Positions 13,520 to 18,464 of a DNA stretch of 64,000 nucleotides are shown in pieces (the first letter of the stretch is position 1; every line of letters begins with the position of its first letter). A program made the position numbers and the translations under genes. The notes below the pieces were generated by a model. It had not been told where the DNA came from. It was given only the letters and a program-made list of their open reading frames with translations, and did no database searches. Origin of the DNA: Candidatus Poribacteria bacterium (lineage in GTDB: Bacteria > Poribacteria > WGA-4E > WGA-3G); contig JAPOZO010000072.1 in NCBI GenBank assembly GCA_026706025.1, forward strand, positions 1-64,000, in the 5' to 3' direction.

Positions 13520-14545
13520 ATGGGGTCAAGAAAAAAAAAGCGAATAATTAAGATAAGCATATTGACATTCTGCGGTCTCGGCACGCTCTGTCTCATCTGC
13601 GTATCAATTGCGGTATTCCTAATGTCACCTCCCACCTCTTCGGAAGAGATTGTTAACTTTGAGGTGCCCATTGGAAGTAGTTCGCGATCAATTGCAAAGC
13701 GACTCCTCGAACAAAAGTTAATTCGGAATGAATATGCGTTTCGTATAATCGTCCGACATAGGGGAACCGGTAGACGTTTACGCGCAGGCACTTATGCGTT
13801 GCGACGAAATATGGCGTTGTGGCACATCGTTGATGAATTTGAAAAAGGACAGGTTACGCTCGTTAGTTTGACAGTTCCAGAGGGTTTAACGACATCTGCC
13901 ATCGCCCAACTTTGGGAAACAACAGGTTTCGGCACAGCTGCGGCATTTCTGGAAGCCACCGAATCGCCTGGTCTGTTGAAACAGTATGGACTCGAAGATA
14001 AGACCGTAGAGGGTTACCTTTTCCCGAATACGTACAAATTCGCGAAAGGGACAACGGTTGAAAAGGCTGTTGGGATGATGCTCAACGAATTCCAACAGCG
14101 GTGGACCGAAACATTTGATGAAGAGGCACAAAACTTAGGGCTTACACAGCACGAAATCGTGACGCTTGCTTCCGTGATCGAAAAGGAAGCGCAATCTAAA
14201 TCGGAACGCCCTCGGATCGCGAGTGTCTTCCATAATCGACTTAAACGAAAATGGCGGCTTCAGGCGGATCCAACAGTGCTGTACGCTTTAGGAAATCCAA
14301 AACGACTCTTAACGAGAGCAGATTTGAGTGTTGACTCGCCTTATAATACATATAAACATAGGGGGTTACCACCGGGCCCTATTGCCAATCCGGGCATTGA
14401 TTCACTGAAGGCGGCACTCCGCCCCGAAAAAACAGACTATTTTTATTTCGTGGCAATAGGCGAAGGAAAACACCACTTCTCAAAGACACTTTCAGAACAT
14501 AACAGGATGATACGAAAAATTCGGCGTGCCTCTCGTGAACGTTAG
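13520..14545 (+). CDS. mltG: Endolytic murein transglycosylase MltG (YceG-like)
   Basis: 341 residues. One transmembrane helix near 10-35 (IIKISILTFCGLG and following) anchors it in the inner membrane. A LysM-like region (VPIGSSSRSIAKRLLEQKLI) is followed by the catalytic domain with the family glutamate in ASVIEKEAQ, then QADPTVLYALG, YNTYKHRGLPPGPIANPG and HHFSKTLSEHN. MltG cuts nascent glycan strands and sets their length. No Shine-Dalgarno sequence is evident before the ATG. The gene sits between ruvX and the lipid A genes. Confidence 0.93.
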   Translation: MGSRKKKRIIKISILTFCGLGTLCLICVSIAVFLMSPPTSSEEIVNFEVPIGSSSRSIAKRLLEQKLIRNEYAFRIIVRHRGTGRRLRAGTYALRRNMALWHIVDEFEKGQVTLVSLTVPEGLTTSAIAQLWETTGFGTAAAFLEATESPGLLKQYGLEDKTVEGYLFPNTYKFAKGTTVEKAVGMMLNEFQQRWTETFDEEAQNLGLTQHEIVTLASVIEKEAQSKSERPRIASVFHNRLKRKWRLQADPTVLYALGNPKRLLTRADLSVDSPYNTYKHRGLPPGPIANPGIDSLKAALRPEKTDYFYFVAIGEGKHHFSKTLSEHNRMIRKIRRASRER

Positions 14546-14589
14546 GCATGCTTTACAATAAACCGAAGGGATAGTTGTCACGGTTAATA

Positions 14590-14668
14590 GCTATCAGCAA
14601 TCAGCAGTCAGAAAGAGAAATCTGATGTGCATTAAAAAATTTTAGGATAGCGGATAGCCGATAACGCA
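14590..14668. repeat. Heptad-repeat inverted element
   Basis: Left array has units CTATCAG, CAATCAG, CAGTCAG; right array is GATAGCG, GATAGCC, GATAACG, the inverse type. About 35 AT-rich bases separate them. It fills the gap between mltG and lpxC-fabZ and ends 7 bases before the ATG of the latter. Confidence 0.55.
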
Positions 14669-14674
14669 TAAAAA

Positions 14675-15961
14675 ATGGAAAAGGCAGACTCACAGCAAAC
14701 AATTCAAAACGAGATAACAATTACAGGAAAAGGGTTAATGTTAGGGAAACCCGTGACATTAACCTTGAAACCGGCACCCGTGGATTCCGGTATCGTCTTT
14801 CGGCGTGTAGATATAGTAGACACGCCCGAAGTGAAGGTATGTCAGGAAAACTGGGCAGACATTTTGCCACGATGCACCAGCTTACGCAAGGGTGATACAA
14901 CAGTTAGTAGCGTCGAACACGTTCTTTCTGCTTTAGGGGGACTCGGTGTTGACAACGCGATAGTGGAACTGGATGCCCCAGAACCGCCGGGTCTTGATGG
15001 GAGTGCGGTGCCGTATGTCGAAAATATTCAAACAGTAGGGCTTACCTCGCAAGAGGCACCCCGAAATTTTATTGAGGTCCCAGAACCGTTTTCACTTTCC
15101 TCAGGAGATAGACAACTCGTTTTATTGCCTGCTGATGCGTTAGAGGTGACATTCGTTTACGCCCACCCCCAAACGACCCCGCAAATAGCAACATTCAAAA
15201 TAACGCCAGAATTGTATGCCCGTGATATAGCACCCGCGCGAAGCTTCTGTTTTGAGGATGAAATCGAAGCACTGCAGGCACTCGGCATCGGGAAAGGCGC
15301 GAGTTATGATAATGTCCTTGTTATTAACGCAGCAGGTGAACCCAGTACACCACTCCGTTTTGACGATGAGTTCGTCCGACATAAAATCTTAGACCTGATT
15401 GGGGATCTTTATCTCGCTGGACACCTCCCAAAGGCACATGTTATCGCTATGCGGACTGGACATACATTCCATGCTGAATTCGTGAAAGCCCTCGCTGAGG
15501 CAGGACACCTTCAACAGCGACCCGCTCAAGAACCTATTGAGGTAATGGAAATCTATGAAGTGTTACCGCACCGGCATCCGATGTGTATGGTTGATAGAGT
15601 CATTGAATATGAGAGTAAAAAACGGGCAGTTGGCATTAAGAACGTGACCTACAACGAGCCGATTTTTGAGGGACATTTCCCGACGCAGCCTGTGATGCCC
15701 GGTGTGCTACAGATTGAAGCACTGGCACAACTCGCAGCATGGCTCGTACTTCGAGACATCGGTAAAGAGGGTGAACTCGGTTACTTTCGTTCAATCAGTA
15801 AGGCGACATTCCGGCGTGCTGTCATCCCTGGCGATCAACTTCGACTGGAAATAGAAGTTGCACAATTGCGGAGCAGGCTTGCACGCATTGAAGGTCGTGT
15901 TTATGTAGGAGACGAACTTGCCACTGAGGCTGAATTATCAATCGTACTGGCATCTGTCTGA
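14675..15961 (+). CDS. Fused LpxC deacetylase and FabZ dehydratase
   Basis: 428 residues with two domains. Residues 1 to about 280 are LpxC (UDP-3-O-acyl-GlcNAc deacetylase, the committed step of lipid A synthesis): SVEHVLSAL with a zinc histidine, H-K-I-L-D in FVRHKILDLIGD, and the GHTFH segment. From about 290 it is FabZ ((3R)-hydroxyacyl-ACP dehydratase): LPHRHPMCMVDR with the catalytic histidine, GHFPTQPVMPGVLQIEALAQ with the catalytic acid. The same fusion is known from Bacteroidetes. Joining the two puts lipid A and fatty-acid steps that compete for hydroxyacyl-ACP under one start. The next gene, lpxA, follows after 55 bases. Confidence 0.93.
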   Translation: MEKADSQQTIQNEITITGKGLMLGKPVTLTLKPAPVDSGIVFRRVDIVDTPEVKVCQENWADILPRCTSLRKGDTTVSSVEHVLSALGGLGVDNAIVELDAPEPPGLDGSAVPYVENIQTVGLTSQEAPRNFIEVPEPFSLSSGDRQLVLLPADALEVTFVYAHPQTTPQIATFKITPELYARDIAPARSFCFEDEIEALQALGIGKGASYDNVLVINAAGEPSTPLRFDDEFVRHKILDLIGDLYLAGHLPKAHVIAMRTGHTFHAEFVKALAEAGHLQQRPAQEPIEVMEIYEVLPHRHPMCMVDRVIEYESKKRAVGIKNVTYNEPIFEGHFPTQPVMPGVLQIEALAQLAAWLVLRDIGKEGELGYFRSISKATFRRAVIPGDQLRLEIEVAQLRSRLARIEGRVYVGDELATEAELSIVLASV

Positions 15962-16016
15962 GTTGCGATCCTCCAATATTAACTGGCAAGATTTTCAGGA
16001 TTAGAGAGGAACATCT

Positions 16017-16841
16017 ATGCTAGAAACTAATATTCATCCTACGGCTATTATCTCTCCAAAAGCGACATTGGAAGAGGGGGTTAAGGTTGGCCCCTATAGC
16101 CTTATCAGTGAAGACGTTCATATTGGGCGTGGAACCGTGATAGGTCCGCATGTTCAGATTGAGAAATGGACAACGATTGGTGAAGAATGCGAGATTTTCT
16201 TCGGTGCCACCATCGGTAACCAATCTAAAGACTTGAAATACGATGGTTGGCGGAGTTATGTGAAAATCGGTAATCGCAATATTTTACGCGAGTACGTCTC
16301 TATCTCCAGGTCAACATTTGAAGAGGGTTCAACTATCGTTGGTGACAACAACCTGCTGATGAATTGGGTTAATCTCGCACATGACACCATCGTCGGTAAT
16401 AGAACGATCATGGCAAATTTTGTTTCGCTTGCGGGGCATGTTGTGATTGAAGATGATGTTCGATTGGGTGCGCACGCCGCGCTGCACCAATATGTACGTG
16501 TCGGCAAGATGGCAATGGCAGGCGGGTTCTCAAAGATTGTACAGGATATTCCACCGTTCATGCTGTCTGCCGGTCAACCGTCGCGCGTGCGGAGCCTCAA
16601 CCGTATCGGTATTCGAACATCACGGATTAACCCGTTGTCCCAGTTGACCCCCGAAACGCTGGCAGAGTTAAAGAAAGCATTCCGCATCTTGTTCCGCTCC
16701 GGTCTACCGCTGAAACATGCCGTCGCCAGAGTCAAAGCAGAACTCGAAGCGACTCCAGAAGTTGAATACCTGCTTGAATTTATTGAAACCTCCAAACGTG
16801 GCATCGGATTTAGCCAACCTAATCGTATCCTGAATGGTTAA
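16017..16841 (+). CDS. lpxA: UDP-N-acetylglucosamine acyltransferase LpxA
   Basis: 274 residues; E. coli LpxA has 262. A left-handed beta helix of hexapeptide repeats covers about 1-190. The catalytic histidine is in the family motif NLAHD, followed by LAGHVVIEDDV, GAHAALHQYVRVG and the GGFSKIVQDIPPF turn. The C-terminal helical part carries the acyl-carrier-protein-binding basic residues. It transfers a hydroxyacyl chain to UDP-GlcNAc in the first step of lipid A synthesis. GAGAGGA precedes the ATG. Order lpxC/fabZ, lpxA, lpxI is as in many diderms. Confidence 0.95.
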   Translation: MLETNIHPTAIISPKATLEEGVKVGPYSLISEDVHIGRGTVIGPHVQIEKWTTIGEECEIFFGATIGNQSKDLKYDGWRSYVKIGNRNILREYVSISRSTFEEGSTIVGDNNLLMNWVNLAHDTIVGNRTIMANFVSLAGHVVIEDDVRLGAHAALHQYVRVGKMAMAGGFSKIVQDIPPFMLSAGQPSRVRSLNRIGIRTSRINPLSQLTPETLAELKKAFRILFRSGLPLKHAVARVKAELEATPEVEYLLEFIETSKRGIGFSQPNRILNG

Positions 16842-17158
16842 GTATCGGGTTTCTGATGAAAACATCGGAAACGTAAGCCCGTAATGAAGCAGATCGCTTA
16901 TGGGGTTTTTGCTGGGGGTATTTGCTTGGGGTCTTTGATAGGGCGTTTCTGCGGATTTCTTCAAGTACGCCGCAAAATGGAGGGGTGTTTTTGCAATGTA
17001 ATACAAGGAACGGATTTAGTCTAACCCCAGACTAAATCCAGTCTATTCCCAGACTAAATCCGGTATTTCTGCGTATTGCTTGGGGGTTTCTTCAACCTTA
17101 CACAGAAGCCTGTCAAACCCTCAAATAACATGACTTAACCGCAAGGTAATACAAAAAT
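16842..17158. repeat. 317-base gap between lpxA and lpxI holding dispersed repeats
   Basis: No gene is supported here. 16880-16910 matches, exactly and reverse-complemented, 30922-30952 (31 bases). 16955-16984 likewise matches 30884-30913 (30 bases). Relative to the other copy there are about 30 extra bases between the two blocks. At 17026-17039 and 17048-17061 the 14-base unit CCCAGACTAAATCC is repeated directly. TTGCTTGGGGGTTTCTTCAA at 17087 is another member of the CACCCAAGCAA family. The gap separates two genes of one pathway. Confidence 0.7.
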
Positions 17159-17962
17159 ATGGAAAAATTGGGGATTATTGCAGGGGCAGGTGAGCTGCCG
17201 GTGCTATTGGTTCGTGCCGCTGTCGCCCATGATCGGAAGCCTGTTATCATCCAAATTACAAAATCTGATGCACAGCGCTTTGCCGGAATTACACCCGAAA
17301 TCCACACTTATGGTGTCGGACAAATTCAAAAGATTGCCCGAACACTTCTCAACTCAGGTGTAAAAGAGGTTGTGATCATCGGTAAGGTCGAAAAAAATAT
17401 CCTGCTTCGCCCATTTCAAATTGATACGACTACGATCAAAATTTTAGTTCAGAACCGACGTGAAAAACCCGCCGCAATTGTCAACGCAGCCCTCAATTAC
17501 CTTGAATCCGTTGGACTCACGATTCTCCCTCAAGACCGCTACCTTCACGATCTGCTCCCACAACCCGGCGTTTTAACAACACGACAACCTACCGCAAGCC
17601 AACAAGCCGATATTGAACTCGGTATCACCACAGCACGTCAAATCGCGAATATGGATATTGGGCAAACTGTTGTCGTTAAAAATCAGATCGTACTTGCTAT
17701 TGAAGCGATTGAAGGTACAGATGCGACTATTAAAAGGGGCGGCAATTTGGGAAGGAAGGGTGTGGTTGTCGCGAAAGCATCTGCCGAGAATCATGATTTC
17801 CGTATCGATGTTCCGACAGTTGGCATGCAAACATTAGCGATGTTGCATCAAGTTAAAGCGGGTGTACTTGCAGTAGAAGCACGCCGAACGTTCGTTATGG
17901 ATACCGAAACGCTTGTTCAGCAAGCAGATCAATGGAAGATTGCAATCGTCGCGGTGGATTAA
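17159..17962 (+). CDS. lpxI: UDP-2,3-diacylglucosamine pyrophosphatase LpxI
   Basis: 267 residues, the usual size for LpxI (formerly DUF1009). Visible family features: the N-terminal GIIAGAGELPVLL, the GVGQIQKI segment, and the C-terminal catalytic-domain marks EGTDATIKRGG, NHDFRIDVPTVGMQTL and AGVLAVEARRT. The enzyme cleaves UDP-2,3-diacyl-GlcN to lipid X and UMP, replacing LpxH. Its place after lpxC/fabZ and lpxA fits the Raetz pathway. No Shine-Dalgarno sequence is obvious before the ATG. Confidence 0.93.
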   Translation: MEKLGIIAGAGELPVLLVRAAVAHDRKPVIIQITKSDAQRFAGITPEIHTYGVGQIQKIARTLLNSGVKEVVIIGKVEKNILLRPFQIDTTTIKILVQNRREKPAAIVNAALNYLESVGLTILPQDRYLHDLLPQPGVLTTRQPTASQQADIELGITTARQIANMDIGQTVVVKNQIVLAIEAIEGTDATIKRGGNLGRKGVVVAKASAENHDFRIDVPTVGMQTLAMLHQVKAGVLAVEARRTFVMDTETLVQQADQWKIAIVAVD

Positions 17963-18090: not shown

Positions 18091-18130
18091 TAAAAAAAGA
18101 GGCGGAGGCAACACAATAGCAGCCTCCGCC
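18091..18130 (-). terminator. Rho-independent terminator of the SelW-like gene
   Basis: On the minus strand GGCGGAGGC (18130-18122) pairs perfectly with GCCTCCGCC (18109-18101) around a 12-base loop, followed by TCTTTTTTTA. It starts 21 bases after the stop codon of the gene at 18152-18382. Confidence 0.85.
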
Positions 18131-18151
18131 CTTCCAAAGATGAGATTCAAA

Positions 18152-18382
18152 CTATGCCGCGTCTATTGCAGTTGCTACCTGCTCGGTTGTTGGAAACTGT
18201 CCAGTTTCTAACTTCGAGTAGAGTAGCGTGCCGTTTAATGAGACTTCAAAAGCCCCACCACTGCCTGGAATTAGATCAACTTTCGCAACTTCTGCACCAT
18301 ACTTTTCTTTTAAGGCATCTGCCAAACTGGCTGCCCGTGGTTTGTAGTTTCAAGAGGTGCAGTATTCAATTCTCACTTCCAT
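18152..18382 (-). CDS. SelW/SelT-type Rdx family selenoprotein with in-frame TGA (Sec)
   Basis: 76 residues if TGA at codon 11 (18352-18350) is read as selenocysteine. The protein starts MEVRIEYCTS-U-NYKPRA, giving the Rdx redox motif C8-x-x-U11. It continues with the family's GAEVAKVDLIPGSGGAFEV and LLYSKLETGQFPTTEQV segments and stops at TAG. Rdx proteins have a thioredoxin-like fold and usually carry CxxC or CxxU. Support for a live gene: AGGAGG 9 bases before the ATG, a promoter at 18436-18464, and a strong terminator. About 18 bases after the TGA, GCC-AGTTT-GGC can form a small hairpin with GT in the loop, as expected for a bacterial SECIS; that element is weak. The alternative is a Cys-to-stop mutation, but the rest of the frame is undamaged. 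No sel genes lie in the window. Confidence 0.85.
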
Positions 18383-18435
18383 GGGGTATTCCTCCTCATT
18401 GAAATTTTGCCTGAATCCGACCATTCCATTTTAAA

Positions 18436-18464
18436 ATTTTACCATTAATATTGGGAAATTGCAA
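18436..18464 (-). promoter_or_regulatory. Promoter for the SelW-like gene
   Basis: Minus strand TTGCAA (18464-18459) and TAAAAT (18441-18436), spacer 17 bases. The ATG is 54 bases downstream of the -10. Confidence 0.6.

Follow-up and report, generated by a model that had tools for sequence, protein, structure and literature searches.

SelB, charged with the selenocysteine (Sec) tRNA, recognises a stem-loop and inserts Sec at UGA. The bacterial SelW-like selenoproteins, which are described by the PF10262, TIGR02174 and NF041051 models, carry a CxxU motif near their N-terminus with Sec encoded by UGA, and they are the most frequent selenoproteins in marine samples, with 427 sequences in GOS (PMC2398784). 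In sponge symbiont bins, selA and selB have been noted in passing (PMC5649159), and our literature search, which covered few subscription journals, found no paper joining "selenoprotein" with "Poribacteria". Here we describe a gene that shares the CxxU motif and the UGA of these proteins. It lies in a stretch of 64,000 nucleotides (the window, contig C72 of a 96% complete, 6.27 Mb MAG assembly of a sponge symbiont of Candidatus Poribacteria), whose closest named loci all belong to Candidatus Poribacteria MAGs, with protein identities of up to 97%.

Results

The selW-like coding sequence occupies positions 18152 to 18382 on the minus strand, from an ATG at 18382 to a TAG stop at 18154-18152. 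Its translation bears out the preliminary description of a 76-residue frame broken only by a TGA: when this codon is read through (18382-18152), a single protein results, MEVRIEYCTSUNYKPRAASLADALKEKYGAEVAKVDLIPGSGGAFEVSLNGTLLYSKLETGQFPTTEQVATAIDAA, with just one TGA, in a YCTSU context. This is codon 11 (18350-18352), the predicted Sec codon, which places a CTSU motif at residues 8-11, near the N-terminus, in keeping with the CxxC/CxxU arrangement of the family. With U replaced by C for profile scoring, the protein matched Pfam Rdx PF10262 (91.7 bits, E 3.4e-26; cut-off 22.6) and the NCBIfam SelTWH models TIGR02174 (81.3; cut-off 34.2) and NF041051 (91.9; cut-off 88), so that the Rdx/SelW pattern first recognised by eye is now backed by three curated models, which assign the gene to the SelW/Rdx family; at an E value of 3.4e-26 the frame is not a chance match. 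As had been anticipated, ordinary ORF calling loses the gene, since a table 11 reading stops after ten codons and the table 11 ORF list holds nothing of at least 60 aa on this frame. Eight distinct solved sequences matched the protein, the best being Agrobacterium Atu0228 (PDB 2fa8; E 1.3e-12), and the others including C17orf37 (2ljk) and Selenoprotein W (2npb; E 9e-4). These solved Rdx proteins have their CxxC/CxxU at the same position and align over residues 2-73, from which a thioredoxin-like fold can be predicted.

The gene is a stand-alone, monocistronic unit. Sequences fitting the promoter, AGGAGG site and strong terminator claimed for it at the outset are all in place on the minus strand, and they were compared across 16 aligned congeners (a count that includes the window itself). 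A promoter-like block, TTGCAA-17-TAAAAT (18436-18464), is kept in the 16 sequences while its surroundings have diverged; the AGGAGG ribosome-binding site (18391-18396) is found in 16/16, and 79 of 82 homologues have a site rich in purines; and the intrinsic terminator (18093-18130), in which a GC-rich GGCGGAGGC...GCCTCCGCC hairpin precedes a run of T, folds with a z of -5.1 and has its stem kept in most congeners. Scans of the window for Rfam elements and for tRNAs found no known element and no tRNA, respectively. In nearly all members of the genus that were read, selW and lpxI are convergent, and most of these members have, upstream of selW, a TonB-type gene together with an SDR gene. A function drawn from the gene neighbourhood was considered and rejected: other genes flank selW in the sister genus (g3), so its position gives no functional clue. 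The lipid A genes convergent to selW in the window (13520-17962, plus strand), given their names on visual inspection of the ORFs, comprise MltG-like, LpxC-FabZ fusion, LpxA and LpxI-like genes.

Searching 146 genomes yielded 84 Rdx matches. A single TGA is present in 83 of them, in every case at the CxxU position; the Cys and the TGA of the motif are invariant across these 83 rows. Within the phylum, every one of the 78 genomes in which SelW was found has the TGA form, and none of these homologues has TGC or TGT at the codon, which disposes of the possibility, raised in the preliminary description, that sister genomes would carry a Cys codon here and frameshifts elsewhere. The search for Cys-form homologues returned a single example (L017 of genome G132), which lies outside the phylum and whose genome gave neither selB nor selC in the same searches. 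Among the 83 TGA-bearing genomes, selB was above cut-off in 78 and selC was detected in 74, with at least one of them in 81; the two genomes with neither are assemblies that are 80-81% complete.

A hairpin after the TGA had been regarded as possible but short. We located a bacterial SECIS-like hairpin at 18313-18336 (minus strand), with a core of GCCA-GUU-UGGC at 18321-18331 and the loop G lying 22 nt after the TGA. Published bSECIS rules call for a loop of 3-9 nt, an upper stem of 4-16 bp, a G as the first or second loop nucleotide, a spacing of 16-37 nt and an MFE of -7.5 kcal/mol or lower (PMC13188914). The loop (GUU), the stem (4 bp), the leading G and the spacing (22 nt) all fit; as for energy, the hairpin reaches -9.6 kcal/mol with its flanking lower stem while the core alone gives -4.4 at best and misses the threshold, so that the outcome on this point depends on the stretch chosen. 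The hairpin is indeed short. When four windows downstream of the TGA were folded as single sequences, it was not stronger than shuffled sequences (z about -0.6), for which reason comparative evidence was used. Among 38 distinct rows, the six-pair stem had 89.5% of its cells paired, versus 15-46% in slid controls, and its covariation score was reached by none of 500 shuffles, a result to be taken as support rather than proof because shuffles do not preserve relatedness. Two of the pairs changed on both sides, as in the C-G to U-A replacement at 23-31 (4 sequences). At the hairpin, the codons for Ser (AGT, 78/78), Ala (GCC, 68/69), Leu (TTG, 74/78) and Asn (AAC, 74/74) are nearly fixed, and those of the apex are locked far beyond what the amino acids require. 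RNAalifold returned only 3 consensus pairs. Genome-wide, a loose pattern of UGA plus SECIS loop gave 2372 matches, against 1729 in a backward control, and was of no diagnostic value.

These data bear on an alternative in which the selenoprotein is real but what SelB recognises is not the short core: it would be another structure, or a longer one, or for the most part the AGUUU primary sequence. The modest folding of the window copy, the A-A mismatch that many congeners have at pair 21-33 and a lower stem that varies between genera all lean that way; nevertheless, covariation and codon lock are both centred on the short core, whose spacing and loop G agree with the published model (PMC13188914), and we consider this alternative unlikely.

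That the locus might instead be a pseudogene or a sequencing error, namely an ordinary Cys-type Rdx gene in which TGC or TGT has become TGA, is suggested by the single base that separates these codons and by the premature end of the table 11 frame. The same TGA, however, recurs in homologues from independent assemblies, single-contig chromosomes among them, and no relative of the same phylum has Cys there. Moreover, the 65 codons downstream of the TGA are under purifying selection: in 49 usable comparisons, all with relatives sharing 60% identity or more, the median dN/dS is 0.12. The conserved TGA and the selection on the codons after it already refute this explanation.

Most of the homologues end in TAA or TAG and 6 end in TGA, and hence TGA still also serves as a stop in this lineage. 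The genome holds the entire Sec machinery that had been proposed as a check: on contig C84, selB scores 352.8 bits against a cut-off of 242, and the adjoining selC 78.1 bits against a gathering score of 47, the selB ORF ending about 15 nt before selC, while selA is found on contig C89 (604 bits) and selD on contig C56 (359.8 bits). As selB and selC are both present, their absence can no longer be held against the reading of the TGA as Sec. Another match to the SelB profile (C40:27448) fell below the cut-off and, judged by its length, is probably EF-Tu. A general reassignment or suppression of TGA (e.g. to Trp or Cys) would likewise open the selW-like frame, but it is highly improbable given long neighbouring genes that are normal under table 11, the 6 homologues that terminate at TGA, and the dedicated selA, selB, selC and selD genes.

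Reading the window genome further, we noted 12 other frames, in addition to selD, with a single TGA at a redox-active position. Seven are AhpC/TSA-like (peroxiredoxin-like) frames with the motifs FTGGU, FGRGU, WUPFC, TUGFC, WUPNS, YUPVC and WUGC, on contigs C63 (two in tandem), C89, C30, C66 and C81 (L197-L202); their TGA looks to be at the peroxidatic or active cysteine, making them candidate selenoproteins. Four thioredoxin-like frames have the TGA as the first residue of UxxC (WUPFC, WUGFC, FUIYC and GUPFC; C69:41646, C65:30166, C59:38311 and C59:40417; L208-L211), and CDYU, a CxxU motif, occurs in an AhpD/CMD-like frame (C84:23704-23898, L203) on the selB/selC contig. SelD itself is a selenoprotein candidate, with a single in-frame TGA in CAGUASK (C56:238667-239590, L106).

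Discussion

Overall, we favour, with a probability of roughly 0.95, SelB-dependent insertion of selenocysteine at the UGA, giving a CxxU redox protein of the SelW type; codon 11 of the gene is almost certainly read as Sec. SelB carrying Sec-tRNA(Sec) would decode the UGA, positioned by the short stem-loop whose G lies 22 nt further on, and the product would be a 76-residue protein of thioredoxin fold. By analogy with SelW/Rdx proteins, its CxxU pair probably performs thiol/selenol redox chemistry on a partner protein.

The suggestion that the organism uses selenocysteine gains support from the selA, selB, selC and selD genes, the conservation of the TGA, selection past it and the covarying hairpin, and we infer that Poribacteria, a sponge-symbiont phylum, very probably do so. 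A wider proposal, to which we incline by a small margin, is that this phylum depends on selenium and has a redox selenoproteome of unusual breadth, with at least a dozen members in the window genome (SelW and SelD besides several peroxiredoxin-like, thioredoxin-like and AhpD-like proteins), and that its SelW is obligately a Sec protein with no Cys variant left; if so, much of the antioxidant system of Poribacteria would be invisible to ordinary annotation. For annotation, the locus offers a clean example of a 76-residue gene truncated by table 11 ORF calling.

The selW-like gene adds a new, well-supported example to a known gene type that ordinary gene finders truncate. The bacterial solved relatives 2fa8 and 2ojl differ from it in having Cys at the position of its TGA and in being about 30 residues longer. 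With the E. coli fdhF-type SECIS, the hairpin shares the form of a small stem-loop within the coding region after the UGA and a conserved loop G-U, and some relatives carry a GGUCU apex; the window hairpin, in contrast, reads AGUUU and shows no obvious bulged U. From the bacterial SelW-like selenoproteins the gene differs only in its host lineage, Poribacteria, and in details of the hairpin, with no functional difference seen.
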